A DNA stretch of 64,000 nt from Kordiimonadales bacterium IMCC3096 (GTDB lineage Bacteria > Pseudomonadota > Alphaproteobacteria > Minwuiales > Minwuiaceae), in NCBI GenBank assembly GCA_016865035.1, contig CP018227.1, forward strand, positions 4,064,115-4,128,114. Reading direction: 5' to 3'. Made by a program: the position numbers and the translations under genes. Below, piece by piece: positions 2,197 to 45,661 of the stretch (positions are counted from its first letter, which is position 1; each line of letters starts with the position of its first letter). Under the pieces are notes generated by a model. It saw only the letters and a program-made list of their open reading frames with translations. It had not been told where the DNA came from and did not search any database.

Positions 2197-2880
2197 ATGA
2201 GTGCCAAGGACAAGATCTTGACGGCAGCAGGTGAATTGTACGGACAGCAGGAGATCGCGATGGTCTCCCAAAGGCAGATCCTGCAGGCTGCCGGTCAACG
2301 CAACACGTCGGCGATCCAGTACCATTTCGGATCACGGGAAGGCCTGTTGCGGGCCGTGTTCGAACGCGGTGTCGCGAGAATTGATGCCCGCAGGAACCAG
2401 CTTGTCGACGAACTGGAAGCCTCGGGAAGGCAACCGGTCGTGAGTGACTACATCAACGCGCTGGTCCGCCCCCTGTGCGAACAGCGCTCCGACGGTGAAT
2501 CCGGTCTTCAGACGCTGCGCTTCCTCGACCAGGTCCTGAAGGATCCAGATCTGCGGCTCATGGAGATCATGAAGGGGATGGACAGCGGCATGCGTCGGGC
2601 GCATCAGGGTGTCGTGCACTGCCTGCCCGACGTGCCGCCGATGCTGCTGCGCTACAGGCTCTACGCAGGCAGCCGTGCAGCCTCCGGTGTATTGTGCGAC
2701 TGGGACAGGAACGGAAAACTCGACGATCTCTCGGACGTCTTTACCGACGATCTGGTCGCGATGGTACTTGCCATGGTCACGGCACCGGTTACACCGGGTG
2801 CGGACAGGCAGTTGGCTGACAGGGCGGCCGGTGATCCCGAGAAGATGGGCTACACTGCGCCAACCACACCAGACGCGTGA
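2197..2880 (+). CDS. TetR/AcrR family transcriptional regulator
   Basis: A 227-residue protein with an N-terminal TetR helix-turn-helix. The stretch KDKILTAAGELY is helix 1, followed by a recognition region around QRQILQAAGQRNTSAIQYHF and then GSREGLLRAVFERG. The rest (residues about 60-200) is the variable ligand-binding and dimerisation domain. The ATG at 2197 follows GGGGGAGAAGACAGGGA, a good ribosome site. It is divergent from the dipeptide-type ABC genes, a common layout for local control, but the target is an inference. Its last 31 bp overlap the 3' end of the convergent molybdoenzyme gene (stop at 2850). Confidence 0.85.
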   Translation: MSAKDKILTAAGELYGQQEIAMVSQRQILQAAGQRNTSAIQYHFGSREGLLRAVFERGVARIDARRNQLVDELEASGRQPVVSDYINALVRPLCEQRSDGESGLQTLRFLDQVLKDPDLRLMEIMKGMDSGMRRAHQGVVHCLPDVPPMLLRYRLYAGSRAASGVLCDWDRNGKLDDLSDVFTDDLVAMVLAMVTAPVTPGADRQLADRAAGDPEKMGYTAPTTPDA

Positions 2881-5255: not shown

Positions 5256-7626
5256 CCGGATATTCCTTGGTCTGGGTGTTCTGCGCGATGACGAGACCTG
5301 CCGCCCCTGCGGCGGCAACGGCGCCCGCAGGCGGAGTCTTCTGGCCTTCCGGCTTCTGTACGGCGGGGGCCGCATCGGCATTCATGGTTTCCGTTTCACC
5401 CTCGCCTTTCGCCCAGTCCGGCCATTCGATCTGGACCCGGCGCTGTGCGAGTTCGATGCCCGCCGCATAGAGGTCGTTCTTCACTTCCTGAAACACGGCC
5501 TTGCGGATCATGAACTGCTCCCGCGGCTTGCAGGTGAACTTGGTGCGCAGGATCAGGGCCCCCTCCTCGATGCGGAACACGCCCTGGGACTTCAGCGGCT
5601 GGATGAACTTCGGGCCGAGTTCCGGATCCTCCAGCAGCCTCAGACCGACCTTCTTGATGATCTTGCGGACCTTGTCGACGTCGGTGTCATAGGGCAGCCG
5701 GAACTCCTGCTTGTAGATCGCCCAGTCGCGGTTGTAGTTGGTGATGGAGCGCAGTTCGCCAAAGGGAACCGTGTGAATGGCCCCCCGATGGTGGCGCAGG
5801 CGCATGGAGCGGATGGAGATCTGTTCCACCTGGCCCCGGATCTCCCCGAACTCGACATATTCGCCGACGCGGAACGCATCGTCGATCAGGAAGAAGATGC
5901 CGGAGATGATGTCCCGGACCAAGGCCTGGGCACCGAAGCCGACGGCGATGCCCACGACACCCGCACCGGCGATCAGGGGACCGATATCCAGTCCCATCGA
6001 CGACAGCACCACCATGATGGTGATGGCGACAAGGATGGTCAGGATGAAACCGCGTATCAGTGGCAGCAGCGTGCCGAAGCGGGAAACGATCAGACCGCCC
6101 AGACCGTCTTCATCAACTGCATGATCGGCGGCAGCGGCCATCGCGCGCTCGTTCTCCCGGTCGATGAAGCGGGTGATCGTCCGTTGCACCAGTGCCCAGC
6201 CGATGGAGGCCACCAGCAGGATGGCCAGCACATCCAGCAGCACCTCGGTCGCCAGCTGCCCGGCCGGGCTCTGCTGCAGGGCAATGATATCGAGGGCAAC
6301 CACGTGCAGGAACGCCGCCAGGCCGATCAGTGCCAGCACCAGATAGGCGATCTGGCGGACAGACGGCAGCAGGCCGCCACCCTGTTTCATCTCCAGTATC
6401 CCGGCCTCCCCGCCCGCGTCGGTCGCGCGCGCGGCAGATTCCTCGTCCGGTTCCGCCGGATTATGGAGACGGGAGACGAACAGGCCGCCGGCCAGCGCCC
6501 CGAACAGGCAGAAGACCGCGACGGTCTTGCTCGGGTCCGGGGAAAAGACACTCAGGGACCAGAGCAGCAGGAACATGGCCGTCGCAACGACCAGCCAGAC
6601 CCGGCGATAGCGCCCGAACAACTGGTGCAGCATCGCGCCAAGACCTGTGCTCGCCGATGGCCGGTCGTGATCAACCGGTGTTCTGAGGATCACCACCAGT
6701 GACACGAGCGCCAGAAGACCGCCAACACCGAGCTGCACGATGTCCAGCATGGCCTGCGGCATGCCCAGCAGGCGCAGCATGCCCATGCTGAACCCGGCAA
6801 GCGCAGCCAGCCCGAGGACGATGGTGAGCCAGTAGACCATGCGCCGCGCGGCGCGGTCGTCCAGGTCCACCATCCGCCGTTCGGGTGCCTTCGGCGCGAA
6901 CAGCGCATTGCCGAGGAACCACCCGGCCATCGCGACGACCGTCACGGCGAGATAGCTGATCAGGAAGATCCGCATGGGGTCGAACTGGCTGAACCAGACC
7001 AGTGACAGCAGGAAACCGGCAGCAACCATCACCGCCAGCACAAGCAGATCACGCAGCAGCACCACCAGGGTGACCGTCAGGGATGGCAGCAGCCGACCGC
7101 GGATCGCCGCTGGCGTGACCACCAGTTGACCGAACATGCGCCGCGTCAGCCAGGCCAGCAGTCCGCCGCCGGCCAGCATCAGCGCAAGATTGGCAATGCC
7201 GGTCCACATGCGCGGCCAGCCCTCGAAATCCGTCAGCAGGATGAAGGCATCCTCGACCTCGCTCTGGCACAGGGGCCAGATGGCGATGACCCCGTCAATG
7301 CCCCTGATGATGCCGTTCATGCTGTTGCGCGCACCGTCGATCAGTGCCGCGAAGGGATCGCCCCCGCCCTGTTGCGGTGCGGCATCCTGCTGTGCGGCAT
7401 TGCCCGCAGCGAGCTTCTCTTCGACGAGTTTCCGGACAGTGGGTTCCAGCAGGGTCTCCAGGCTCTGCTGTCCCGGCGCGGGCGCGGTCTCGGTCTCGGA
7501 ACGCTTCTCGGCCTGTTTCAGGACCTGGAGCGCCTGCGCCTTCACCTCTCCTGTTCCGGACCAGGAGAACCCGAGCAGGATCAGGATCATCAATGCCAGC
7601 AGTGAGCGTGCGAAACCCATGTTCAT
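5245..7626 (-). CDS. Large MscS-family mechanosensitive ion channel
   Basis: A 793-residue inner-membrane channel of the MscS superfamily. It has an N-terminal signal peptide (about residues 1-30), a periplasmic linker rich in Gln/Ala, about ten hydrophobic segments, and a C-terminal MscS core. The pore helix and beta domain include GVVGIAVGFGAQALVRDII, the region around RVGEYVEFGEIRGQVE, and TVPFGELRSITNYNRDW. Such channels open under membrane tension and release solutes after hypo-osmotic shock. A short Ala-rich tail ends in TKEYPDEP. ATGs at 7626 and 7620 are both possible; a run of G gives better spacing to 7620. It is followed, with overlap, by the molybdoenzyme gene. Confidence 0.88.
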   Translation of the reverse strand: MNMGFARSLLALMILILLGFSWSGTGEVKAQALQVLKQAEKRSETETAPAPGQQSLETLLEPTVRKLVEEKLAAGNAAQQDAAPQQGGGDPFAALIDGARNSMNGIIRGIDGVIAIWPLCQSEVEDAFILLTDFEGWPRMWTGIANLALMLAGGGLLAWLTRRMFGQLVVTPAAIRGRLLPSLTVTLVVLLRDLLVLAVMVAAGFLLSLVWFSQFDPMRIFLISYLAVTVVAMAGWFLGNALFAPKAPERRMVDLDDRAARRMVYWLTIVLGLAALAGFSMGMLRLLGMPQAMLDIVQLGVGGLLALVSLVVILRTPVDHDRPSASTGLGAMLHQLFGRYRRVWLVVATAMFLLLWSLSVFSPDPSKTVAVFCLFGALAGGLFVSRLHNPAEPDEESAARATDAGGEAGILEMKQGGGLLPSVRQIAYLVLALIGLAAFLHVVALDIIALQQSPAGQLATEVLLDVLAILLVASIGWALVQRTITRFIDRENERAMAAAADHAVDEDGLGGLIVSRFGTLLPLIRGFILTILVAITIMVVLSSMGLDIGPLIAGAGVVGIAVGFGAQALVRDIISGIFFLIDDAFRVGEYVEFGEIRGQVEQISIRSMRLRHHRGAIHTVPFGELRSITNYNRDWAIYKQEFRLPYDTDVDKVRKIIKKVGLRLLEDPELGPKFIQPLKSQGVFRIEEGALILRTKFTCKPREQFMIRKAVFQEVKNDLYAAGIELAQRRVQIEWPDWAKGEGETETMNADAAPAVQKPEGQKTPPAGAVAAAGAAGLVIAQNTQTKEYPDEP

Positions 7627-18787: not shown

Positions 18788-19846
18788 TCAGGCCGCGTGG
18801 TTCAGGTCATAGCCCTTGAAGGTCGTGCCGATCTTCTGGATGTCCTGCAGCACGTCCGGGTCGATCAGGGTCGGTTCCTCGCCTGCGGCAGTCTGGAAGC
18901 CGATGGAGTCGGACAGGCCGCCGAAGCGTTCCTCGATGCGGTTGGCGATCACGTCCCAGGTGCCATGGGCACAGAACAGGTCGACCACGTCGTCGGAGAC
19001 TTCCGCCGCCATCTCGTCCCAGCGCTGCTGCACCGACATGCGATGCAGCTTCTCGCCCAGGTCCAGCAGGTCATGCTGTTCGAACACGGGCCAGTAGGTG
19101 CGTGTGGAGCCGTAGAAGGCGACCCGGTAACGGACCCAGTCGTACATCTTGCGGACCTCTTCTTCCGTCTTGCCGGTGGCGATGAAGCCGCCGCCGGAGA
19201 TCTCGAAGTTCTCCCGGCTGCGTCCGCCCCGTTCGAAACCGGTCTCCAACTCCTTCATGATCACGTTCTCGATGTATTTCCGGGTGCAGAAGCCGTGCAG
19301 CCGGACGCCGTCGCAGACATGGCCTGCCACGCGCATCATCGCCGGGCCGACCGCGGCGATGGTCACCGGCGCGCCGACATGGCCCATCGGCTCCGGCGTG
19401 AAGTTGGGCGTCATCAGGGTGAAGGAATAGTGCTTGCCGATGAAGGCCAGGTCCCGCCCCCCCTCGGCCCAGCACTTCCAGATGGCATGCAGGGACTGGA
19501 TATATTCCTTCAGGCGCGGCGCGGGCGGGCTCCACGGCACGGAGAAGCGGCGTTCATTGTGTCCCTTCACCTGGCTGCCAAGGCCCAGCACGAATCGCCC
19601 GCCGGATGCGGCCTGCAGATCCCATGACGCCTCCGCCACCACCATCGGGCTGCGCGGAAAGGCAATGGCGACGCCGGTCGCGAGCTGGATGCTCTCTGTC
19701 GTGGTGGATGCAACGGCCAGCGGCAGGAACGGCTCGTTCGCATTCTCCTGCGTGACGATGCCGTCATAGCCTGCTTCCTCGATCTCCCGGGCGAAGGTAC
19801 CGGCATTCTTCAGGGGCACCCCCTGCATCGCGAACTGGACTTTCAT
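18788..19846 (-). CDS. LLM-class F420-dependent oxidoreductase (luciferase-like TIM barrel)
   Basis: A 352-residue luciferase-like monooxygenase-fold protein. Landmarks are EIEEAGYDGIVTQENANEPF, TGVAIAFPRSPMVVAEASWD, the barrel stretch GRFVLGLGSQVKGHNERRF, and APVTIAAVGPAMMRVAGHVC. Proteins with this layout use coenzyme F420 or FMN; F420 is favoured here because the F420 genes cofC and fbiC start divergently only 115 bp away. It would catalyse a hydride transfer on an unknown substrate. The ATG at 19846 is preceded by GGGGAGAGAGA. Confidence 0.85.
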   Translation of the reverse strand: MKVQFAMQGVPLKNAGTFAREIEEAGYDGIVTQENANEPFLPLAVASTTTESIQLATGVAIAFPRSPMVVAEASWDLQAASGGRFVLGLGSQVKGHNERRFSVPWSPPAPRLKEYIQSLHAIWKCWAEGGRDLAFIGKHYSFTLMTPNFTPEPMGHVGAPVTIAAVGPAMMRVAGHVCDGVRLHGFCTRKYIENVIMKELETGFERGGRSRENFEISGGGFIATGKTEEEVRKMYDWVRYRVAFYGSTRTYWPVFEQHDLLDLGEKLHRMSVQQRWDEMAAEVSDDVVDLFCAHGTWDVIANRIEERFGGLSDSIGFQTAAGEEPTLIDPDVLQDIQKIGTTFKGYDLNHAA

Positions 19847-19960
19847 TCTCTCTCCCCATCAAACGCAGGGGCCGGATGCAGCAACCGGAGGGTTCTGCTC
19901 ATGGACGCGGCCCTTGCCGCATGTATGATACCGCGCCAGTTGGGGAGGAAACAGGAATAG

Positions 19961-20653
19961 GTGGATCAGAGGTCCATGTGGATCATTCTGCCAATCAAGA
20001 ACATGGATCAGGCGAAGCAGCGGCTTGCCGGTGAGCTCTCACCGCAGGAACGGCGAAGCCTGTTCGAGACCATGTTGACCGACGTGTTCGAAACCCTGGT
20101 GCAGTGCAGGCGGACCAGCGGCATCGTGATCATCTCGCGGGAGCCGAAGGCGGCGGCCTTCGCCGAGCGCTATGGCGCGGAGCTGGTGGAGGAGCCGCTG
20201 AACGAAGGGCAGTCGGCGGCTGTCCAGCGTGGCGTCGATCATGTGCTGGCGAAGGGCGGACGCGGTATCGTGACGATTCCCGGTGATGCTCCGGCCCTGA
20301 CCGTGTTCGAGGTCGACGGGCTGATCGCCCTGAACGGCAATTCCGACCCGGCGCTGACACTCTGTCCGTCACATGACCGGCGTGGCACCAACTGCATCGT
20401 CGCGACACCACCGGACCTGATCCGGTTCCATTTCGGCCATGAGAGCTTTGGCCCCCACCTGCAGGAGGCCGAGAAGATCGGTATCACCCCCAGCATCCGC
20501 CCCCTGCCCGGCCTGGGCCTGGACATCGACACGCCGGAGGATGTGCTGAAGTTCCTCGACCTGCCGCACACCACGCGGACTCACCGGTTCCTGACGGAGA
20601 ACGGCATTGCCGAACGGCTGCTGGCGAAGCAGGCGCGGGACCTTGGCGCATGA
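19961..20653 (+). CDS. cofC: 2-phospholactate/phosphoenolpyruvate guanylyltransferase CofC
   Basis: A 230-residue nucleotidyltransferase that activates 2-phospholactate, 3-phosphoglycerate or phosphoenolpyruvate with GTP for coenzyme F420 assembly. Family features are the N-terminal WIILPIKNMDQAKQRL, the GDAPALTVFEVD metal-binding segment, and DRRGTNCIVATPPDLI with the FHFGHESFGPHLQEAE stretch. The GTG at 19961 has AGGA four bases upstream; an ATG at 19976 is also possible and gives the more usual N terminus. Its stop overlaps the ATG of the FO synthase gene (ATGA), so the two are translated together. Confidence 0.9.
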   Translation: MDQRSMWIILPIKNMDQAKQRLAGELSPQERRSLFETMLTDVFETLVQCRRTSGIVIISREPKAAAFAERYGAELVEEPLNEGQSAAVQRGVDHVLAKGGRGIVTIPGDAPALTVFEVDGLIALNGNSDPALTLCPSHDRRGTNCIVATPPDLIRFHFGHESFGPHLQEAEKIGITPSIRPLPGLGLDIDTPEDVLKFLDLPHTTRTHRFLTENGIAERLLAKQARDLGA

Positions 20654-23079
20654 GTGCTGAACTGCCCGATCGCGCGACGATCGATGCGCTGGCGGAGCTG
20701 CCGCTGGCCGATCTGATGGCGCGGGCCGCCGCCCGGCGCGATGCGTACCATGGCGACACGGTGACCTATTCGCGCAAGGTCTTCATACCGCTGACCCATC
20801 TGTGTCGGGATGTCTGCCACTACTGCACCTTCGCGGAGCCGCCGAAGAAGGGCGAGGCCGCCTTCCTCTCGCCGGAGCAGGTGCTGGAGATCGCGCGCAA
20901 GGGCGCGGCGGCGGGCTGCAACGAGGCGCTGTTCACCCTGGGCGACAAGCCGGAGCTGCGGTACCGCGCGGCGCGGGAAGCGCTGGAGCGGCTGGGCTAC
21001 GCCACCACCCTCGACTATCTGCACGCCATGGCGGAGCTGGTCTGGCGGGAAACCGGGCTGCTGCCGCACCTCAATCCCGGCCTGATGGATCTGAATGACC
21101 TGAACCGGCTGCGTCAGGTCTCCGTCTCCATGGGCATCATGCTGGAGGGCACCGCGCCCAGCCTGATGGAACGCGGCAAGCCGCACTTCGGCTCCCCCGA
21201 CAAGGACCCGGCCCTGCGCATCGCCTGCATGGATGCCGCAGGAGAGGCCCGGGTGCCCTTCACCAGTGGTATCCTGATCGGTATCGGCGAGACGCGGGCG
21301 GAACGGCTGGACGCGCTGTTCGCCCTGCGTGACCTGAACGACCGCCACGGGCACCTGCAGGAAGTCATCATCCAGAACTTCCGCGCCAAGCCGGGCACGA
21401 AGATGGTCGATGCCCCGGAACCGGATCTGGACGAGCTTTGCTGGACGATTGCCATGGCGCGGCTGCTCTTCGCGCCGCAGATGCATGTGCAGGCCCCGCC
21501 GAACCTCAGCCCCGGCGTGCTGCCGCGCCTGATCGGTGCCGGCATCGACGACTGGGGCGGCGTTTCCCCGGTCACGCCGGATTTCGTGAACCCCGAAGCC
21601 CCCTGGCCGCATCTGGAGAAGCTGCGGTTGGAGACGGCGCTGGGCGGCAAGCGGCTGGCGCAGCGGCTGCCGGTCTATCCCGAACACATGGAAGACGCCG
21701 ACCGCTGGCTCGATCCGGCGTTCCACAAGGCGGTGCTGGACCGTACCGACGGACAGGGACTGGTGCGCGATGACGCCTGGTCGCCAGGGGAGCATGACGC
21801 GATCCCTGACCTTCCCGCCATGCGTCCCTCCGGCACCCTGAAACCGATCATCGACCGTGCGGTTGCCGGGGAGCGGCTGGAGCCCGAGGAGATCGTGCGC
21901 CTGTTCCGTGCCCGCGACGCCGACTTCGTGGCCGTCGTGCAGGCGGCGGATGCGCTGCGCCAGCGGGTCAGCGGCGAGAGTGTTTCCTACGTCGTCACGC
22001 GTAACATCAACTACACCAACGTCTGCTACTTCAAGTGCCAGTTCTGCGCCTTCTCCAAGGGCAAGCTGTCGGAGAACCTGCGCGGCCGCCCCTATGACAT
22101 CGGCCTGGACGAGATCCGACGCCGGGTGCGGGAGGCCTGGGATCGTGGCGCGACCGAAGTCTGCATGCAGGGGGGCATCCACCCCGACTATACTGGCCAG
22201 ACCTATCTCGACATCCTGGACGCGGTGCATGAGGCCGCACCCGGGATGCATGTGCATGCCTTCTCCCCGCTGGAAGTGGCCCAGGGCGCGGCAACCCTCG
22301 ACCTGCCCGTCGCCGAATTCCTGCAGCGGCTGAAGGATCACGGTCTTGGCACCCTGCCCGGCACTGCAGCTGAAATTCTGGATGAAGAAGTACGCACAAC
22401 CCTTTGTCCGGACAAGCTTCGTACAGATCAATGGCTGGACGTCATGCGCGACGCCCACCGGGTCGGATTCCGCACCACGGCGACGATCATGTTCGGTCAC
22501 ATCGACCACTACCGTCACTGGGCGCGGCACCTGTTGAGCATCCGCGACCTGCAGGCGGAGACCGGCGGCTTCACCGAGTTCGTGCCCCTGCCCTTCGTCC
22601 ATATGGAGGCACCGATCTACCTCAAGGGTCGCGCCCGCAAGGGTCCGACGTTCCGGGAGGCGGTGCTGATGCACGCGGTGCCCCGGCTGGTGTTCAACGG
22701 TCTGATCGACAATATCCAGACAAGCTGGGTGAAGATGGGTCCGGCGGGCGTGCGGGCGTGCCTCGCCGCCGGCGCCAACGACCTTGGTGGCACCCTGATG
22801 AACGAGACCATCACCCGCGCCGCCGGTGCCGCGCATGGGGAGGAGATGCCGCCGCACATGATGGAGGATCTGATCCGCCAGTCAGGCCGCACCGTCCGCC
22901 AGCGCACCACCACCTACGAGACCGCCCCCGAAAGCCGCACCCAGCGCTCCCGACAGGCCGCCCCACTGGAGGAGGTGGTCAACACCCCGGCCACCCGTTA
23001 CGACCGCGATCAGCGCCCGAGCCGGTTGGTAAGGCCAGGACTGGAGGCCGCTTTGAGGGAGATCAGCGGCGGGGATTGA
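20650..23079 (+). CDS. fbiC: Bifunctional FO synthase (fused CofG-CofH)
   Basis: An 809-residue protein with two radical-SAM modules that makes 7,8-didemethyl-8-hydroxy-5-deazariboflavin, the chromophore of F420, from tyrosine and a ribityl uracil. The CofG half (about 1-390) has CRDVCHYCTF. The CofH half (about 400-780) has VCYFKCQFCAFSKG and EVCMQGGIHPDYTG. Each CX3CX2C binds a 4Fe-4S cluster. CofG-first fusions are known as FbiC in actinobacteria and also occur in some proteobacteria. It is coupled to cofC by ATGA. CofD and CofE, needed to finish F420, are not in this window. Confidence 0.95.
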   Translation: MSAELPDRATIDALAELPLADLMARAAARRDAYHGDTVTYSRKVFIPLTHLCRDVCHYCTFAEPPKKGEAAFLSPEQVLEIARKGAAAGCNEALFTLGDKPELRYRAAREALERLGYATTLDYLHAMAELVWRETGLLPHLNPGLMDLNDLNRLRQVSVSMGIMLEGTAPSLMERGKPHFGSPDKDPALRIACMDAAGEARVPFTSGILIGIGETRAERLDALFALRDLNDRHGHLQEVIIQNFRAKPGTKMVDAPEPDLDELCWTIAMARLLFAPQMHVQAPPNLSPGVLPRLIGAGIDDWGGVSPVTPDFVNPEAPWPHLEKLRLETALGGKRLAQRLPVYPEHMEDADRWLDPAFHKAVLDRTDGQGLVRDDAWSPGEHDAIPDLPAMRPSGTLKPIIDRAVAGERLEPEEIVRLFRARDADFVAVVQAADALRQRVSGESVSYVVTRNINYTNVCYFKCQFCAFSKGKLSENLRGRPYDIGLDEIRRRVREAWDRGATEVCMQGGIHPDYTGQTYLDILDAVHEAAPGMHVHAFSPLEVAQGAATLDLPVAEFLQRLKDHGLGTLPGTAAEILDEEVRTTLCPDKLRTDQWLDVMRDAHRVGFRTTATIMFGHIDHYRHWARHLLSIRDLQAETGGFTEFVPLPFVHMEAPIYLKGRARKGPTFREAVLMHAVPRLVFNGLIDNIQTSWVKMGPAGVRACLAAGANDLGGTLMNETITRAAGAAHGEEMPPHMMEDLIRQSGRTVRQRTTTYETAPESRTQRSRQAAPLEEVVNTPATRYDRDQRPSRLVRPGLEAALREISGGD

Positions 23080-31137: not shown

Positions 31138-33504
31138 TCACCGCTCCCCCGGTTTCCGCAGGGCATTGTTGGCGGACCGGGCGATGGAGGCTGAATCGAG
31201 GCCGAAGTGGCGGTAGAGATCGGCGACGGTGCCGGTCTGGCCGAAGTGTTCCACCCCAAGCGGGATGGTCCGGTGACCGCCAACGGCACCCAGCCATGAC
31301 AGTGTCGCGGGATGGCCGTCGGTGACGGTCAGGACCGTGCAATGGGCCGGCAGGGCGGAGAACAGCGTTTCCACATGGCTGCTGGCGCGGCGGTTGCCAC
31401 GGCTGCGGTCGCGCTGCGCCGCGGTCCAGCCCGCGTTCAGCCGGTCGGCGGAGGTGACGGACAGCACCGCCACATCCCGATGGTGCTGGGCCAGCTTTCC
31501 GGCGGCATCAATGGCCTCGTTCGCCACCGCGCCCTGATAGGCCACGACAAGCTCACAACCCGGCCCCGGCGGGCGCATCCAGTAGGCACCGTCGATGACG
31601 TTCCGGGCGAAATCCGGGTTGGGGCGTCGGCCCGGCTGTTCCAGCGGATTGGTGGTGAGACGCAGGTAGACGGAGCCGCCGGTCTCGTCGCGTAGCCAGG
31701 TCCGCTCATCCGGGTCCCCCTCCCCGTCGTTCTGCATGTAGGCGAAGGCCCAGCGCATGATGATGGCCAGTTCATCGACGAACGCGGGCTCGAAAGCCGC
31801 AAGGCCGTCCTGTGCCATGCCGATCAGCGGCGAGCCGATGGACTGGTGCGCGCCCCCCTCCGGTGCCAGCGTGATGCCGGACGGGGTGCCGACAATCATG
31901 AAGCGCGCATCCTGGTAGCAGGCATAGTTAAGGGCATCGAGACCGCGCGCGACAAACGGGTCATAGACCGTGCCGACCGGCAGCAGGCGCTTGCCGAACA
32001 GGGAATGCGACAGCCCGGCCGCGCCGAGCAGCAGGAACAGGTTCATCTCCGCGATGCCCAGTTCGATGTGCTGCCCCTCCGGCGCGAACTCCCACTTCGC
32101 GGTGGAGGGGATGCTCTCCGCGATGAAGGTATCGGCCTGTTCGGTACGCGCGAACAGCTTGCGGCGGTTGACCCAGGGGCCGAGGCTGGTGGTGCCGGTC
32201 ACGTCAGGCGACATGGTGACGATCCGGTCCGCGAGATCGCTGTCGCCCTTGGCAAGCTGATCCAGAATCCGACCGAATGCGGTCTGGGTGGAAATCTCCC
32301 CGCGCACGGCAAGATCGATCTCCTGTGACGCAATCACCCTGTCCGAATAGCGCCGCCGTCCCCGGGCAAAGAACGGAGTCTGATCAAGAAAGGCCTGCAG
32401 TGCCTCCGGGTCGGCGACGGTGGCGAACCGCTCCCACTCCTCCCCCTCGGCAACGCCCATGTGCTGCTGCCATTCGGCCATCTGGGTCTTGTTCATCAGA
32501 CCGCCATGGTTGTCCTTGTGGCCGGCGATGGGCGTGCCCCAGCCCTTGACCGTATAGGCCAGGAAGCAGACGGGGCGGTCGTGATCGATGGCGTCGAAGG
32601 CTTCCGCCATGGTCTGCACGCAATTGCCGCCCAGGTTCTCCATCAGTGCCGCCAGTTCCGCATCGCTGCGCCGGTTGATCAGCGCCGTGACGTCGCCCTG
32701 ATCGCCCAGCGCATCCATCAGCCTTTGCCGCCAGACCGCACCGCCCATGAAGGTCAGCGCGGCATAGAGCTGGTTCGGGCAGTCGTCGATCCAGGCGCGA
32801 AGTTTCTCGCCTCCCGGCTCCTGAAAGGCGGCCCGCTGCAGGTGGCCGTACTTGACGCGCACGACATCCCAGCCGAACGCCTCGAAGATCTTCTCGATCC
32901 GTCCGAACAGCCCCTCCCGCACGATCCCGTCCAGGGACTGGCGGTTGTAGTCGATGATCCACCAGGTGTTGCGCAGATCGTGCTTCCAGCCTTCCTGCAG
33001 GCATTCGTAGACATTGCCCTCGTCCAGTTCCGCGTCGCCCACCAGCGCCACCATGCGCCCCAGCGGAACCTCCGCACCCCACGGCTTGGCGGAAACATAG
33101 TCCTGCACAAGTGACGCGAAGGAGGTGATCGCCACGCCGAGACCGACAGAGCCGGTGGAGAAATCCACGTCATCCACGTCCTTGGTGCGGGACGGATAGG
33201 ACTGCACGCCGCCATAGCCGCGGAAATTCTCCATCCGCGCCCGGGTCTGCTGCCCCATCAGGTACTGGATCGCATGAAAGATCGGCGAGGCATGGGGCTT
33301 CACGGCCACCCGGTCCTCGGGCCGCAGGGCGGAAAAGTAGAGCGCCGTCATGATCGAGACCATGGAGGCGGAAGATGCCTGGTGGCCCCCGATCTTGATG
33401 CCGCCCTCCTTGGGGCGCAGGTGGTTGGCATTGTGGATCATCCAGTGGGACAGCCAGAGCAGCCGCTGCTCGATGGTCTTCAGATGGCTGTGCCGTGCAT
33501 TCAT
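31138..33504 (-). CDS. Homodimeric 2-oxoacid dehydrogenase E1 (AceE-like transketolase)
   Basis: A 788-residue thiamine-diphosphate enzyme with an AceE-like layout, though shorter than E. coli AceE (887). The ThDP motif is GDAELDEGNVYECLQEGW followed by IIDYNRQSLDG. The pyrimidine-binding half includes GIAEMNLFLLLGAAGLS and the C-terminal transketolase domain ends GVEHFGQTGTVADLYRHFG. It decarboxylates a 2-oxoacid and reductively acylates an E2 partner; neither E2 nor E3 is adjacent. A divergent Lrp-type regulator suggests an amino-acid-derived 2-oxoacid such as 2-oxobutyrate (compare mdeB with mdeR in Pseudomonas), which is my inference. The ATG at 33504 is chosen as the N terminus matching the family. 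Confidence 0.85.
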   Translation of the reverse strand: MNARHSHLKTIEQRLLWLSHWMIHNANHLRPKEGGIKIGGHQASSASMVSIMTALYFSALRPEDRVAVKPHASPIFHAIQYLMGQQTRARMENFRGYGGVQSYPSRTKDVDDVDFSTGSVGLGVAITSFASLVQDYVSAKPWGAEVPLGRMVALVGDAELDEGNVYECLQEGWKHDLRNTWWIIDYNRQSLDGIVREGLFGRIEKIFEAFGWDVVRVKYGHLQRAAFQEPGGEKLRAWIDDCPNQLYAALTFMGGAVWRQRLMDALGDQGDVTALINRRSDAELAALMENLGGNCVQTMAEAFDAIDHDRPVCFLAYTVKGWGTPIAGHKDNHGGLMNKTQMAEWQQHMGVAEGEEWERFATVADPEALQAFLDQTPFFARGRRRYSDRVIASQEIDLAVRGEISTQTAFGRILDQLAKGDSDLADRIVTMSPDVTGTTSLGPWVNRRKLFARTEQADTFIAESIPSTAKWEFAPEGQHIELGIAEMNLFLLLGAAGLSHSLFGKRLLPVGTVYDPFVARGLDALNYACYQDARFMIVGTPSGITLAPEGGAHQSIGSPLIGMAQDGLAAFEPAFVDELAIIMRWAFAYMQNDGEGDPDERTWLRDETGGSVYLRLTTNPLEQPGRRPNPDFARNVIDGAYWMRPPGPGCELVVAYQGAVANEAIDAAGKLAQHHRDVAVLSVTSADRLNAGWTAAQRDRSRGNRRASSHVETLFSALPAHCTVLTVTDGHPATLSWLGAVGGHRTIPLGVEHFGQTGTVADLYRHFGLDSASIARSANNALRKPGER

Positions 33505-33661
33505 GGTGCCTGTCCCCATACCGTTCCCGTCGGCCTGGCGGATGCCGTCAGCACGCCGCGCAGCAGGCAAAGCATATCACCATGGCCGAAGTGATTTCTT
33601 GCGAATGCAGCTTATCCTGTTCATGGATATGGTGTTATCGGCGGCAACGAAGGATTTTCTG

Positions 33662-34154: not shown

Positions 34155-37100
34155 TCAGGTCTGCGCCCTGATCCCGCCCTCTGCCTTCGCGCCGGGGGCG
34201 AGCTTGAAGACTTCGCCTTCACGGGCCTTGGCGCGGTGGACGACGCGCTGGATACCGGGAATGGCGAGCAGGCTGGGTTTGACGATCTGTTCCATGGACA
34301 GCAGCGAATAGGGACAGTTGGAACAACTGCCGACGAAGCGGACACGCAGTTCACCGATCCCCTCGTCGATCTCCAGCACATCCAGCCGTCCGCCGTCATT
34401 GGCCAGTACCGGCGCGATGACCCGCTCCACCCGTTCCGCCAGGGTGCCGGCATAGAGCTGGTCCGGGTCGAACAGGGCCGGTGACGGCGTGTCCCGGTCA
34501 GTGCAGGCGCGTATCTCCTCGATCGCCTTCGCATCCTTGGTGGCGTCGATGATGCCGAGTGCGACAAAGGCGTCGGCAAGCTCGGGCGAGATCTTCTGGT
34601 GCACGAGGTACTTCACGAAACCGGACTTGTTGGCGGGGGAGAAGGAGAGCTTCTCCCGGTATTCTTCCCAGTCCAGATCAACGGGGCCGGAGATCTCGAA
34701 ATTGGCATCACCGGTGCGCACATAGTCCACGATCAGTTCGCCCAGCCGGTCGAAGAAGCGGCAATGCTCCTTGCCCGTCGCGGCGCGCTTGCGGTTGATC
34801 ACCATGCCGCGCAGCTTGGTCAGTTCACGGTCCTTCGGCAGCACACCGGTGATGACATCGACACGGACGGCGCGGTTGCGCTTCCGGTCCACCATCAGCA
34901 GGGCGCTGTTGCCGATGGCGCGGGAATGCACCAGCAGCGCGGACCCGATCTCCGCCGGCGAGATGCCCAGGAAATGCGCCGGCACGTCACCGGCACAGGG
35001 AATGGCCACCCCGCTGACAAAGGCCAGATCATCACGGCGGATGGTGGCATTCGCACCGAACAGCAGGTCGAGACCGCGCTTGGCGGCAACGAAGAGCTGG
35101 ATCGCCACGATCTCTTCCTTGAACTCCAGCACCGCGCTCTTGTGCGCCGACAGCAGGTCGAGGGTCTGTTCATTGCCCGCCTCATCCACCACGGTCACGC
35201 CGCCGACGAAATCGGACAGGATCGGGTGCATGATCGACTGGTAGTCGAGGCGGCGCAGCAGCGGCAGATAGACCAGCAGGAAGCGGTCCCGCTGTTCCCC
35301 GTCCAGCCCGCGCAGCAGGTCACCGGCGGCAGCCTTGTAGCCCGGATCGGAGGAATAGCGCTGGAAGAAGGCGGTGACGGCGCCGACGGCCTCGCTCAGT
35401 TCCCGTGCCGCATCGGTCTGCGGATCGCGCAACTGGTCCGACGGCAGCCAGTGAATGCCGTGCCGGTCGTCGCGCTGGGTTGCCACCCAGTCCTCGTCGG
35501 TGGGGAAGGTGGCGCGCCAGTCGGCGAAGATGATGTCGATGCAGCGGTTCAGCGCCGCCGCGTCCGGGGCCGACCAGAGAGCCAGTTCCAGCGGGCGCAG
35601 CGGGGCAAGCTGCACCGGGGTGCGCTTGATCAGGCTCTGGTGGGTGAACTGGTCCGCCTCCACGTAATCCGTCAGGCGGTTCACCTCCCCCGGCACGAAG
35701 TCGATGAAGGCCGTGCCACGGGCGACGCGGTCATTCAGCGCCACCTGGGCGATCACGGCGCCATGACCGGCGACCATGCGCGTCGCAATCCCTTCCTCAA
35801 GGCCCAGCGCCGCCGCCTCGTCCGGGTGCAGTTCGACGTGATGCTCGTCCGGGTCCAGGCCATAGATCGGCAGGGTCTTGATGCCAGAGTTGTAACGTCC
35901 CCTGCCCCGCAGTGCCTGACGTCCGGGCCGTCCGCGACCGCTGATCAGCGACAGGGTACCGGGGGGCAGATCCGCCTCCAGCCGTGCCATGAAGTCGTCC
36001 GGCGGGCAGACCAGCCGGGCCAGCGTCTTCGTGTCCTGATGCAGACCGGGAAAGATCTCGCCGGAGCTGTTCTCGACGTTGTATCGGCCGTTGCCACCCC
36101 ACTGCACGCCCATGCCGGCGTTGGCGCGCAGCATGTCGTGGCTGATCGCCTCCCCCTCCGCATTCTCCAGACGGCAATACATGTCCAGGTCACGGCTGAC
36201 CTGCACCAGATGGTCGAACACCCGGTCGGGCATGATCTGGTCCTGATTGTCCAGATAACGGGCGAAGGTGCGGTGCACCACGTCCGGGTCCAGATCGTTC
36301 AGTTCCGCCGTGTCGGGATTGCGCAGCCGCTCCGCGATCTTCACCGCCAGTCGGGCCAGGATCTGCTCGTCGGCCCAGGCCTTCTCCGGCGGGGTGCTGA
36401 GCTGCTGCTGCAGTTGCAGGGTGCGGTCCCCGCGCTGGATGACGCCTGTCCGCTCCACATAGGTCATGGCTGGCAGCAGCACGTCGGCATGGTCCAGCAC
36501 CCCTTCGCCCAGGAAGCTGTCGATGACGATATTGAACGACCGGCCCATGCGGCGGGTCCAGTGACCGACACGCGGCATGTTCTTGGTCATCTGGGTACCG
36601 ACGAAGATGAAGCAGTAGATGCGGTCATCCTCCGCCATCTGGGAGACCGGTGTCCCCTTGTGGTCGGGAATGTTGTCGATGGGTATGTCGAGGATGTCGG
36701 CCAGTGCCTGCCGATGGCTGGCCTCGGCCGGGTCATGGTTGAACACCAGCTTGCGGCCGTTGAAGCCCATCATCAGCTCGCTGGTGGCATTCGACTGACC
36801 GGCGATGCGCATGGAACCGGCGCCCTTGCGCCCGACATTGCCTGTCAGCAGCAGCAGGTTGAGGTTGGTGGAGAAGCCGTAGCTGCCGGTCGACTGGTTG
36901 ACGCCCATGCTGGAGACAAAGGCGACCTTGGGCCGGTACCCGCTCTCGTCCGGCTTCGCACACAGCTCGGCATAGCGGCGGATGGTGGCGGCAAGTTCTG
37001 CGATGTCCTGCCCGGGCATGGCGATGCGGCGGGCCGCTTCCTCCGGCACGCAGCGGTCTTCCGACACCAGCTTGCGGAACGCGGCAATGCTGTCGGGATC

Positions 37101-38006
37101 AACACGCTTGTCCAGGCTGGCCTGATCCTGCCAGCCATTGTCGAGGATCACCCGTGCGACCGAGAGGTTGAACAGGACATCGCCACCCTGGCGGAAGCGG
37201 ATGTGAATGGTACGCGGATCATCCTCCTCCAGGTCGCTGACGGTGTCGCTGCGGGTCGGGTCGATCACCACCTTGATCGCGTGCCTGTTGCGCTTGATCT
37301 TCTCGTAGGCCTGCGGGAACGTGACGAAGGGATTGGTGCCGTGCATGACGGCGACGTCACAGCCCTCGATCTCGTCGAACTGGCTCCAGGTAAAGCTCGC
37401 CTCATTGCCGAAGTTCAGCTGGTGCGCGGCACCGGCGCTGGTCAGGCAGTGTTCGGAATTGGCACCGATGGTCGGCAGGCGGAACACCAGCTTGTACAGG
37501 CTGGCCATCCAGATCGCCTCGATCATCTTCTGGCCATTGCCGTAGATGGCGACGGCATCGGGACCGACCCATTCGCGGGCATGCAGGAACAGCCAGGCGG
37601 CGCGGTCCAGCGCCTCGTCCCAGGATACTTCCTTCATCTTGCCGTCATGGCCACGGATCATCGGCACGCGAATCCGGTCGTCATCCAGACCGCGACGCAC
37701 CATCCGTGTCGCGCGTTCCGCATCGCCACCGGTCATCAGCGACGTCTTGCCCTTGACGCAGAGCCCCAGCGGCGACATCGGAACCACCCGGTCAATACCC
37801 TTTGCGTCAGGCTCGACCGTATAGGGGCACCCCACACCGCAATAGCTGCAGACGCTGGACCGGTTGCGCAGCGCATCATGGCGCAGGCGCACGCTGTCAT
37901 CCTGCCGCAGTGCCGGATTGTCGGCGACGGCGGCTACGAAATCCGCCGCGCTCATGGCCAGCAGTTCAGCGATGTCGGTGGTGGAGCGGAAAGTGTCGGC
38001 AGGCAT
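34155..38006 (-). CDS. Molybdopterin oxidoreductase with C-terminal NifU-type Fe-S carrier domain
   Basis: A 1283-residue fusion. Residues about 50-780 are a bis-MGD molybdoenzyme of the Nap/Nas/Fdh type: Cys53, 56, 60 and 83 form the 4Fe-4S site (CSYCGVGCPYTV, GLCVKGK), and Cys187 in GANSEHCLTSAG is the expected Mo ligand. The molydop-binding domain runs to about 785. Residues about 790-1180 form a region I do not recognise. Residues about 1187-1260 are a NifU C-terminal (Nfu) domain with the cluster-holding pair in SCSNCPYS (Cys1228, Cys1231). No signal peptide, so cytoplasmic. A residue 1-45 leader precedes the Fe-S site. It may be a nitrate reductase or formate dehydrogenase relative; the substrate is unknown. 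It is divergent from ugpB across an AT-rich region with an inverted repeat. Confidence 0.88.
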   Translation of the reverse strand: MPADTFRSTTDIAELLAMSAADFVAAVADNPALRQDDSVRLRHDALRNRSSVCSYCGVGCPYTVEPDAKGIDRVVPMSPLGLCVKGKTSLMTGGDAERATRMVRRGLDDDRIRVPMIRGHDGKMKEVSWDEALDRAAWLFLHAREWVGPDAVAIYGNGQKMIEAIWMASLYKLVFRLPTIGANSEHCLTSAGAAHQLNFGNEASFTWSQFDEIEGCDVAVMHGTNPFVTFPQAYEKIKRNRHAIKVVIDPTRSDTVSDLEEDDPRTIHIRFRQGGDVLFNLSVARVILDNGWQDQASLDKRVDPDSIAAFRKLVSEDRCVPEEAARRIAMPGQDIAELAATIRRYAELCAKPDESGYRPKVAFVSSMGVNQSTGSYGFSTNLNLLLLTGNVGRKGAGSMRIAGQSNATSELMMGFNGRKLVFNHDPAEASHRQALADILDIPIDNIPDHKGTPVSQMAEDDRIYCFIFVGTQMTKNMPRVGHWTRRMGRSFNIVIDSFLGEGVLDHADVLLPAMTYVERTGVIQRGDRTLQLQQQLSTPPEKAWADEQILARLAVKIAERLRNPDTAELNDLDPDVVHRTFARYLDNQDQIMPDRVFDHLVQVSRDLDMYCRLENAEGEAISHDMLRANAGMGVQWGGNGRYNVENSSGEIFPGLHQDTKTLARLVCPPDDFMARLEADLPPGTLSLISGRGRPGRQALRGRGRYNSGIKTLPIYGLDPDEHHVELHPDEAAALGLEEGIATRMVAGHGAVIAQVALNDRVARGTAFIDFVPGEVNRLTDYVEADQFTHQSLIKRTPVQLAPLRPLELALWSAPDAAALNRCIDIIFADWRATFPTDEDWVATQRDDRHGIHWLPSDQLRDPQTDAARELSEAVGAVTAFFQRYSSDPGYKAAAGDLLRGLDGEQRDRFLLVYLPLLRRLDYQSIMHPILSDFVGGVTVVDEAGNEQTLDLLSAHKSAVLEFKEEIVAIQLFVAAKRGLDLLFGANATIRRDDLAFVSGVAIPCAGDVPAHFLGISPAEIGSALLVHSRAIGNSALLMVDRKRNRAVRVDVITGVLPKDRELTKLRGMVINRKRAATGKEHCRFFDRLGELIVDYVRTGDANFEISGPVDLDWEEYREKLSFSPANKSGFVKYLVHQKISPELADAFVALGIIDATKDAKAIEEIRACTDRDTPSPALFDPDQLYAGTLAERVERVIAPVLANDGGRLDVLEIDEGIGELRVRFVGSCSNCPYSLLSMEQIVKPSLLAIPGIQRVVHRAKAREGEVFKLAPGAKAEGGIRAQT

Positions 38007-43950: not shown

Positions 43951-44265
43951 TCAGGCCTCCGGCGCGATGGTGAGTTTCAGGCCGTCCAGGGCGTCGGTCA
44001 TCTCGATCTGGCAGGACAGGCGGGAATTTGGCTTGTAGGTCGGCTCGTCCTCGACCAGGCCCTTCTCGTCGTCATCCTGTGCCGGCAGCCTTGCCGCCCA
44101 GGCTTCATCGACATAGACGTGGCACGTGGCACAGGCGCAGGAGCCACCGCAGATCGCATCGATCTCGTAGTCGTTGTCGCGCAGGTTCTCCATGATGGAG
44201 ATGCCGCTCTCGGCCTCCAGCGTTGATTCCGCGCCAGCGCGATTGGTGATGTGAATGACCGGCAT
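43951..44265 (-). CDS. 2Fe-2S ferredoxin (adrenodoxin/putidaredoxin type)
   Basis: A 104-residue electron carrier. The cluster ligands are in ICGGSCACATCHVYVD (three Cys) and the fourth is in NSRLSCQIEM, the pattern of vertebrate-type ferredoxins that serve cytochrome P450s or Rieske oxygenases. The ATG at 44265 gives the normal N terminus MPVIHITNRAG; the upstream in-frame extension overlaps the reductase gene. It is 28 bp downstream of the reductase gene on the same strand, so the pair forms an electron-transfer operon. Confidence 0.93.
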   Translation of the reverse strand: MPVIHITNRAGAESTLEAESGISIMENLRDNDYEIDAICGGSCACATCHVYVDEAWAARLPAQDDDEKGLVEDEPTYKPNSRLSCQIEMTDALDGLKLTIAPEA

Positions 44266-44293
44266 GCTGTCCGGGCCCTCCCTGGAATGAGTA

Positions 44294-45505
44294 TCAGACT
44301 TCCTTGATCGGTATTTCGGTGTCGGCAAGACGGGCGGCATCGACCGTGCGCCCCTCCCCGATCCACTTGCGCCCGCGCACATAGTCGGCGCCGACATTGA
44401 TGGCGTTCACGCCGGAGACCTTGCCGTCCCGCAGGTAGAAGACGGAGAAGGACCGGCTGTCAGGGCCGCCGCGCACCACCACCTGGTCATCGGGGGCGGG
44501 CAGTCCAGCCATCTGCATCTTCAGGTCATACTGGTCGGACCAGAACCAGGGCACCTCCGCATAGTCCGCGCCCTTGTCGGTGAGTTCGTTCGAAATGCAG
44601 CGGGCCTGATCGACGGCATTCTGGACCGATTCCAGTCGCACGGTCTGGCCCAGCAGCGCGTTCGGATGCCGGGTGCAGTCCCCGGCGGCAAAAATGTCCG
44701 GATCGGACGTCCGCGCCCGTGCATCGACGACGATGCCGTCATCGACCGCCAGTCCCGCATCAGCTGCCAGCGCGACCACCGGCACGACACCGATGCCGAC
44801 CAGCACGATGTCGGCGGGATGCACATGGCCATGGCTGTCCGCCACGTACTCGGCCCTGCCGTTTCCGCCGATCTCCGCAACACCGGTCTCCAGCAGGATA
44901 TGCACCCCTTCGGCCCGGTGGGCCGCCTCGTAGAAGCGCGACACCGGCTCCGCCACCGCCCGCGCCATGACCCTGTCCATCATCTCGATCACGGTCACGT
45001 CGCAGCCAAGCTTGCGCAGCGCTGCCGCAGCCTCCAGCCCGATGTAGCCACCACCGGCAATCACGACCCTGGCGCCGGACCCGGCTTTCTCCCGGATCGC
45101 GAGGGTGTCGTCGATGGTGCGAATATAGTGAACCCCTGGCAGATCGCGCCCGGCCACCGGAATCTCGCGGATCGCGGTGCCCGTACAGAGTGCCAGCCGG
45201 TCGTAGGCGAGCGATTCGCCGCCCGCCAGCGTGACTGTCTTGCCTGCCCTGTCGATCGACGTGACTTCGGTCCCCAGCCGAAGATCGACGCCCTTGTCGG
45301 CGTAGAAGCTCTCCGGCCGCAGAAAGACCTTCTCCGTCGGCACCTCTCCCATCAGCAACTGCTTCGACAGCGGCGGGCGCTCATAGGGCGGCCAGTTCTC
45401 CGCGCCGATCAGGGTGATGCGGAAGCGGTCCCCTGCCCGGGCAAGCTGGGTCGCGAGCGTGCCCCCGGCATGGCCGGCTCCGACAATCACAATATGCTCG
45501 CTCAT
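44294..45505 (-). CDS. Ferredoxin reductase (FAD-dependent pyridine nucleotide-disulfide family)
   Basis: A 403-residue flavoprotein that moves electrons from NAD(P)H to the adjacent 2Fe-2S ferredoxin. It has the FAD motif IVIVGAGHAGGTLATQLA, the family stretch NWPPYERPPLSKQLL, the NAD motif VVIAGGGYIGLEAAAALR, and DIFAAGDCTRHPN near the second FAD contact. It matches putidaredoxin/rubredoxin reductase proteins. I start at the ATG of 45505. The oxygenase served is not adjacent; the Rieske protein at 14-15 kb is one candidate. Confidence 0.92.
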   Translation of the reverse strand: MSEHIVIVGAGHAGGTLATQLARAGDRFRITLIGAENWPPYERPPLSKQLLMGEVPTEKVFLRPESFYADKGVDLRLGTEVTSIDRAGKTVTLAGGESLAYDRLALCTGTAIREIPVAGRDLPGVHYIRTIDDTLAIREKAGSGARVVIAGGGYIGLEAAAALRKLGCDVTVIEMMDRVMARAVAEPVSRFYEAAHRAEGVHILLETGVAEIGGNGRAEYVADSHGHVHPADIVLVGIGVVPVVALAADAGLAVDDGIVVDARARTSDPDIFAAGDCTRHPNALLGQTVRLESVQNAVDQARCISNELTDKGADYAEVPWFWSDQYDLKMQMAGLPAPDDQVVVRGGPDSRSFSVFYLRDGKVSGVNAINVGADYVRGRKWIGEGRTVDAARLADTEIPIKEV

Positions 45506-45661
45506 GCGCCTGGATCCTTCATCGCGCGGGCGCCGCGCTGTCACCTGACATGCGCGACCGGCCCCTTGTACATACCCAAGGCCGCACCCAAGTGGAACCC
45601 GCCGCGTGGGGTGCGATCAGTCGCCGCGTTGGTGGGGCGGACGACTGCGGTTGATGCTGCT

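Follow-up and report, generated by a model that had tools for sequence, protein, structure and literature searches.

A molybdopterin oxidoreductase fused to an Nfu domain in the genus Minwuia: a possible single-chain enzyme with a built-in electron relay

The stretch of DNA analysed here, called the window, comprises 64,000 nucleotides of the genome of Kordiimonadales bacterium IMCC3096 (contig CP018227.1, positions 4,064,115 to 4,128,114). Between positions 34155 and 38006 of its minus strand, one uninterrupted open reading frame (ORF) encodes a protein of 1283 amino acids (aa), from an ATG codon to a single terminal stop. In this protein, hereafter the fusion protein, a molybdopterin guanine dinucleotide (MGD)/[4Fe-4S] oxidoreductase is followed by a middle region and by a C-terminal Nfu domain (Table 1). 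An earlier prediction made from the letters of the window (the original prediction) had described one ORF of 1283 codons, without giving its strand, and this description held.

The catalytic part was recognized by two Pfam families, Molybdopterin (PF00384; E-value 1e-28, 100.8 bits against a cut-off of 24) and Molydop_binding (PF01568; E 1.8e-11, 44.5 bits against 26.8), and by these two domains the protein is a member of the dimethyl sulfoxide (DMSO) reductase, or MopB, superfamily, whose enzymes bind two MGD (bis-MGD). The Nfu domain also scored above its threshold (NifU, PF01106; E 1.6e-9, 38.2 bits against 27), with the CxxC motif present. The Pfam model Fe4S4 stayed under its cut-off (16.6 against 22.7 bits); in the alignment all four cysteines of the [4Fe-4S] site (53, 56, 60 and 83) are in place, as is the lysine two residues past the fourth. 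Cys187 aligned with the ligand position of the Escherichia coli formate dehydrogenase (FDH) FdhF, Sec140 (selenocysteine), and with Cys182 of E. coli NapA. These results agree with the 4Fe-4S/bis-MGD oxidoreductase, the likely molybdenum ligand Cys187 and the C-terminal Nfu domain with SCSNC of the original prediction, and the bound cofactor is a prediction here as well. A stretch of about aa 790-1180 that could not be placed at that time was not placed by the libraries searched here either, and its boundaries are better drawn at aa 801-1185.

Table 1. Parts of the fusion gene and neighbouring genes in the window (pLDDT, predicted local distance difference test; dN and dS, nonsynonymous and synonymous substitution rates)
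Feature	Position	Strand	Basis
Whole gene, 1283 aa: MGD/[4Fe-4S] oxidoreductase (aa 49-800), middle region (aa 801-1185), Nfu domain	34155..38006	-	ORF, Pfam, intact in 4 assemblies
aa 1-48, poorly conserved N-terminus	37863..38006	-	dN 0.11-0.26, dN/dS 0.10-0.25
aa 53-83, [4Fe-4S] four-Cys site CxxCxxxC...C then VK	37758..37850	-	Alignment; weak Pfam match
aa 111-554, Molybdopterin oxidoreductase domain PF00384	36345..37676	-	Pfam, alignment
Cys187, motif SEHCLTSA	37446-37448	-	Alignment
aa 701-795, molydopterin dinucleotide binding domain PF01568	35622..35906	-	Pfam
aa 801-935, no Pfam match, predicted helical	35202..35606	-	AlphaFold pLDDT 51-86 (blocks of ten); dN/dS 0.12-0.27
aa 936-1185, highly conserved within the genus; FmdE-like match near aa 1029-1097, below significance	34452..35201	-	dN/dS 0.03-0.10
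aa 1193-1255, Nfu (NifU C-terminal) domain PF01106, SCSNC at aa 1227-1231	34242..34430	-	Pfam, alignment
[2Fe-2S] ferredoxin	43951-44397	-	Pfam; about 6 kb from fusion gene
Ferredoxin-reductase-type flavoprotein	44294-45544	-	Pfam; overlaps ferredoxin gene
Luciferase-like monooxygenase	18788-19846		Pfam
CofC	19961-20653		Pfam
Radical SAM / CofH_C protein, 809 aa	20650-23079		Pfam

Four assemblies of the genus Minwuia (G000, G197, G385 and G387) contain the complete frame, closed by one stop codon at its end. Over the whole gene, dN/dS ranged from 0.062 to 0.097 in all six pairs of these intact copies; by part, it was 0.03-0.08 for the molybdopterin part and 0-0.054 for the Nfu domain, with the two halves of the middle region as listed in Table 1. 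The N-terminus and aa 801-935 were the least constrained, and the Nfu domain was under the strongest purifying selection. Intact frames together with low dN/dS in four assemblies rule out a frameshift or a chimeric contig, and with them the possibility, raised by the original prediction, that a frameshift conceals a separate gene for the NifU part, since three other assemblies also keep the frame unbroken. The low values across the parts also show that the middle region and the Nfu domain are maintained.

Matches to the gene were found in five of the seven genomes of the genus, with none in G368 and G386, and in five of the nine genomes of the order, with none in the two from other genera. The match in G082 (L005, contig G082:C24) is a decayed copy lying between a RimO-type gene and a transketolase-like gene: aa 1-327 have no match in the approximately 330 bases remaining there, about aa 676-995 are gone, the frame shifts at that point, and a stop occurs before the end. 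Such a copy, the two genomes without a match and the narrow spread would suit a lineage-specific, dispensable enzyme that is being lost in parts of the genus, its C-terminal third being a structural appendage; the purifying selection on every part of the four intact copies, foremost on the Nfu domain, makes this very improbable.

A profile of the middle region run against 385 alphaproteobacterial genomes gave real matches in G000, G197 and G082 and weak ones in G368 and G198, and the single sequence run against 398 Pseudomonadota genomes gave G000 and one weak match in an unrelated-looking ORF. The weak matches in G744, G368 and G198 (E 0.001, 0.026 and 0.036), of which that in G744 alone was inspected, were judged to be chance, so that in these two sets of genomes the middle region had only chance-level matches beyond Minwuia. 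A scan of genome contigs with two narrow peptide patterns, which distant relatives could escape, led to three contigs; the C-terminal half had no match in viral contigs (two patterns) or in plasmids, and the Nfu part alone had one match in the plasmid collection (Fusobacterium, E 0.009). As the searches in other phyla were weak, a restriction to Minwuia is a statement about the sampled Pseudomonadota. In a census of 133 alphaproteobacterial genomes, the Nfu domain was above its cut-off in 122, and the fusion protein was the sole match in an open frame of more than 700 residues. Nine other long Nfu frames (318-698 residues; two of 321 and 341 residues were left out of this reading) were ordinary Nfu/NifU proteins, several of them extended upstream by spurious frame, plus one Nfu-Rieske protein of the HucE type.

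To compare the active sites, 45 MopB rows were aligned and the residues at FdhF positions 140, 141 and 333 were read. The set Cys-His...Arg occurred in 20 rows, which are exactly those of a 20-row clade of the tree (support 100/99) and include three annotated FDHs (E. coli FdhF, Haloterrigena and Halomicrococcus). Cys-Met...Thr was found in 17 rows: six of a Nap-type clade with E. coli NapA, ten of a Nas/NarB-type clade that includes three annotated nitrate reductases, and L068, placed by the tree beside the FDH clade. Because most rows are unannotated, these classes were assigned by motif and by position in the tree. Cys-Leu...Ala, with the alanine preceding Gly-Gln, appeared in two rows, the fusion protein and its G197 orthologue; L021 had Cys-Leu...Pro, other sets were present in L057, L059, L060 and L062 (same genome as the fusion gene), and L067 was cut at the site.

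The accessible part of one report assigns the conserved His and Arg an important role in catalysis by FDH (PMC13397495). The fusion protein shares with FDH alpha subunits (TIGR01591; FdhF) the N-terminal [4Fe-4S] site, the MGD-binding domains and the Cys (or Sec) ligand position; it lacks the Cys/Sec-His and the Arg before Gly-Gln that are present in all 20 FDH-type rows, and has two extra C-terminal parts. The catalytic domain order, and a hydrophobic residue after the Cys, are common to it and to NasA/NasC/NarB and NapA; here the Cys-Met and Thr-Gly-Gln present in all 17 such rows are absent, with Leu in the place of Met and Ala in that of Thr. A BFD-type [2Fe-2S] domain is often present at the C-terminus of NasA, whereas the fusion protein has Nfu, and no BFD domain was found in it with Pfam. 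As these second-sphere residues match neither the FDH nor the nitrate reductase set, formate and nitrate are both unlikely as the substrate. A second molybdopterin-domain protein is encoded in the window (2850-5381, minus strand, 843 aa), with a Cys in the motif STEICNWHK.

The nearest relatives were two proteins of Alphaproteobacteria, L021 (G011) and L072 (G157), with 1286 and 1284 residues from the starts chosen. They align with aa 122-800 and 122-805 of the fusion protein at 26% identity, which is nearly the whole molybdopterin part, they have the EHCL motif in common with it, and their C-terminus is also a self-contained electron-transfer end. This end is an FNR-type module (FAD_binding_6, NAD_binding_1 and Fer2 in Pfam), whereas the fusion protein has the middle region and Nfu at that place; moreover, L021 has Pro before Gly-Gln where the fusion protein has Ala. 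At their N-terminus, L021 (L021:214-4071) and L072 (L072:243-4094) have CxxCxxxD and then a long insertion, and despite the long similarity neither gave a PF00384 match at E 0.1. This pair is rare too, judging from the few matches to the molybdopterin part of L021, which found no plasmid record at E 1e-5 and, in the 398 Pseudomonadota genomes (E 1e-10), only the fusion protein and one match at 8.8e-11.

The fusion protein and L021 were joined with support 100/99 in a tree of 43 rows, from which L057 (NuoG-type) and L067 (cut at an in-frame TGA) were left out. Two later trees had 21 and 19 rows of our own choice from that set. In the 21-row tree the fusion protein and its orthologue stood beside the L021/L072 pair, separate from every FDH and nitrate reductase row (99/99), and in all three trees the fusion protein fell outside the FDH-type clade. 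With L021/L072 included, the approximately unbiased (AU) test rejected a union with the FDH-type rows (p-AU 0.003) and with the nitrate-reductase rows (p-AU 0.015), the latter value depending in part on those rows not forming a single clade. In the 19-row tree, without L021/L072, p-AU was 0.109 for a union with the FDH-type rows (0.309 with L068) and 0.217 for one with the Nas/NarB rows, and a union with the Nap rows was part of the best tree (support 56/82). Tentatively, the enzyme may be placed on a deep branch of the FDH/nitrate reductase part of the MopB superfamily.

Family searches would suggest a different name. The best NCBIfam match was Fdh-alpha (TIGR01591; E 5e-54), at 183.5 bits against a cut-off of 666.25; the nitrate reductase models were likewise under their cut-offs (NasC, 142.5 against 1100; NapA, 102.6 against 930.55 bits), and the best PDB matches were FDH and periplasmic nitrate reductase. 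An FDH variant tolerating the loss of His and Arg would account for these matches and for a union with the FDH-type rows that is not rejected once L021/L072 are omitted. We consider this variant improbable in view of the residues at the site, of the position outside the FDH-type clade and the rejected union with L021/L072 in, and of the separate FDH-type protein with Cys-His...Arg (L058) that the same genome contains.

Pfam, NCBIfam and PHROGs gave no significant match to the middle region, nor did the PDB sequences, searched with the single sequence and with a profile; the original prediction had likewise left the region unplaced. Under threshold, only three names appeared: FmdE (E 0.055-0.21), a mitoribosomal chain (0.31) and a PHROG without assigned function (0.39). 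FmdE (PF02663) was the sole Pfam family listed, and it was listed for all four orthologues (E 0.21 for this copy, 0.12 at best; 0.092 and 0.055 on two 253-aa pieces), with 12.1, 13.3 and 14 bits, where shown, against a cut-off of 22.9. We treat it as a lead only. Following this lead, the region could be a divergent FmdE-type domain that helps to insert or hold the metal while Nfu does the same for the Fe-S cluster, the C-terminal third being a maturation unit for both centres. The pages available of a study of three FmdE core structures report Zn or Zn/Ni sites in two of them and mention a fusion of FmdE to the molybdopterin-binding domain PF00994 (PMC2954224). However, the scores shown lie far below the cut-off, the profile was matched over the C-terminal half only, no usable structure was obtained, and the four orthologues are not independent evidence, being 89-95% identical; an FmdE-type maturation unit is thus improbable.

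The suggestion of an additional redox centre in the middle region, made by the original prediction, found no support, as its four cysteines (822, 1004, 1082 and 1168) are isolated and there is no CxxC; a metal site is possible. An AlphaFold model of aa 800-1283 (4 rows) had a mean pLDDT of 51.5 and was poor save for much of the first 135 residues, which were helical with fair confidence, and one of aa 925-1185 (5 rows) was poor throughout (37.2). Searched with Foldseek, the former had its best PDB match at E 0.47, and the VIA comparison gave one row of Z 5.2 and the rest at most 4.3 against helical parts of unrelated proteins, scores that say little because the matches are helical arrangements.

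The Nfu domain of the fusion protein shares PF01106 and GxCxxC with housekeeping Nfu and NifU proteins; it differs from them in being attached to a molybdoenzyme and in its divergence, scoring 43.4 bits against 100.1 for the other, housekeeping-type Nfu of the same genome and falling, in a tree of 20 rows, into neither the housekeeping Nfu clade (98/98) nor that of NifU (98/97). Among 12 Nfu proteins compared by blastp, the HucE type came first by a small margin (39.3 against 38.1 bits). According to the sections consulted of a study in Mycobacterium smegmatis, two [NiFe]-hydrogenases are inactive without HucE and HhyE, which contain Nfu domains, and the most plausible role of these proteins is said to be electron transfer (PMC6883350). 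In methanotrophs, a NifU-domain gene lies next to those of group 1h hydrogenase, and hydrogenase neighbourhoods also contain a NifU/Rieske gene family, as stated in the portions seen of two further reports (PMC12319191; PMC12727194). By analogy, the fusion protein may be another redox enzyme that is served by a CxxC-bearing Nfu domain and lacks the usual electron-transfer subunit. HucE and HhyE, in contrast, are separate subunits with Rieske or rubredoxin-type ends and no molybdopterin domain, and Pfam found neither end in the fusion protein. Since HucE N-termini and the middle region are both helical before the Nfu domain, we compared them, and no similarity beyond Nfu was seen by blastp or local profile comparison. 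None of the 14 window neighbours scanned with Pfam was a [NiFe]-hydrogenase; the rest of the genome was not searched for one.

The explanation that we prefer, although tentatively and at somewhat less than an even chance, is that of a single-chain oxidoreductase in which Nfu would act as a built-in electron relay. No twin-arginine signal was seen by eye at the N-terminus, and the enzyme, with bis-MGD and molybdenum (or tungsten), would be cytoplasmic. From the metal, the electrons of the substrate would reach the [4Fe-4S] cluster at the N-terminus and then a second one, also [4Fe-4S], that bridges the Nfu domains of two chains. Nfu clusters are shared by a pair of chains, with two cysteines from each, and it is because of this bridging position that we propose a homodimer. 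The Nfu domain would then hand the electrons to a soluble acceptor, in place of the flavin adenine dinucleotide (FAD)/nicotinamide adenine dinucleotide (NAD)/[2Fe-2S] module of the relatives, and aa 801-1185 would be the joint and a docking or metal-binding module. Rather more doubtful is the wider claim that the fusion protein represents a new class of self-contained molybdo- or tungstoenzymes, with Nfu as a permanent electron-transfer module bridging two chains, aa 801-1185 as an undescribed domain family and a novel substrate.

Several points weigh against a relay. Nfu domains are known mainly as carriers. The part seen of the M. smegmatis study allows an assembly role for HucE/HhyE as well and notes that an artificial acceptor does not substitute for them, which speaks against a pure relay there (PMC6883350). 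The HucE rows are the nearest to the fusion Nfu by path with a support of 36/50 only; the AlphaFold models are poor and give no distances between clusters. The link to L021/L072 joins long branches, and without it the deep placement is unsettled, none of the tested unions being rejected.

The main rival is self-maturation, a serious one, which we hold to be less likely than the relay and more likely than the other rivals. The tethered Nfu would be supplied with a cluster by the general Fe-S machinery and would, as the original prediction also suggested, load or repair the [4Fe-4S] cluster of its own chain; the electrons would leave through the N-terminal cluster, their acceptor being a ferredoxin such as that at 43951-44397. 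Nfu proteins are described, in what could be consulted of PMC8003979, as Fe-S cluster transfer proteins, the failure of the artificial acceptor with HucE/HhyE fits an assembly role, and the N-terminal four-Cys site is complete. The gene neighbourhood also suits self-maturation. The statement that no partner subunits are encoded nearby was right for the adjacent genes, but not for the ferredoxin and the ferredoxin-reductase-type flavoprotein about 6 kb off, which are possible redox partners of the enzyme; in G385, the ferredoxin gene lies about 1.8 kb from the fusion gene. On the other hand, the genome already has a housekeeping-type Nfu, the FDH- and nitrate-reductase-type rows (651-1209 aa) have the same cluster and none was seen with an Nfu domain (they were not scanned individually), and L021/L072 have an electron-transfer module at the same place.

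A pyruvate-dehydrogenase-E1-like transketolase gene (31138-33570) adjoins the fusion gene in G000, G197 and G385, and the decayed copy in G082. It was rejected as a firm partner or as a clue to the substrate, since in G387 (L042) it is missing from this place and an exporter gene directly follows the fusion gene. The genomes without the fusion gene, G368 and G386, have only a 57% identical transketolase homologue, so that within the genus they stand further off. Coenzyme F420 pathway genes, at 18788-23079 and at least 11 kb from the fusion gene, were observed in this alphaproteobacterium; as a clue to the enzyme they were dropped because it has no F420-related Pfam domain. No RNA family was found in the window by an Rfam scan at gathering thresholds, and hence no molybdenum-cofactor riboswitch.

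In summary, MopB enzymes and Nfu domains are each known, and what is new within the literature searched is their fusion, the active-site set Cys-Leu...Ala and the middle region; no description of these was found in that literature, in which few subscription papers were within reach, and to that extent an earlier account of the same architecture, which would have counted against the original prediction, did not turn up. The active site would point to a chemistry beyond formate and nitrate, contrary to the names that automatic annotation would suggest, and the middle region is a conserved stretch outside all families of the libraries searched. Whether Nfu domains that serve redox enzymes are carriers or wires was left open for the hydrogenases in the portion of PMC6883350 consulted; as carrier and enzyme are here on one chain, mutating a single pair of cysteines can tell these roles apart.

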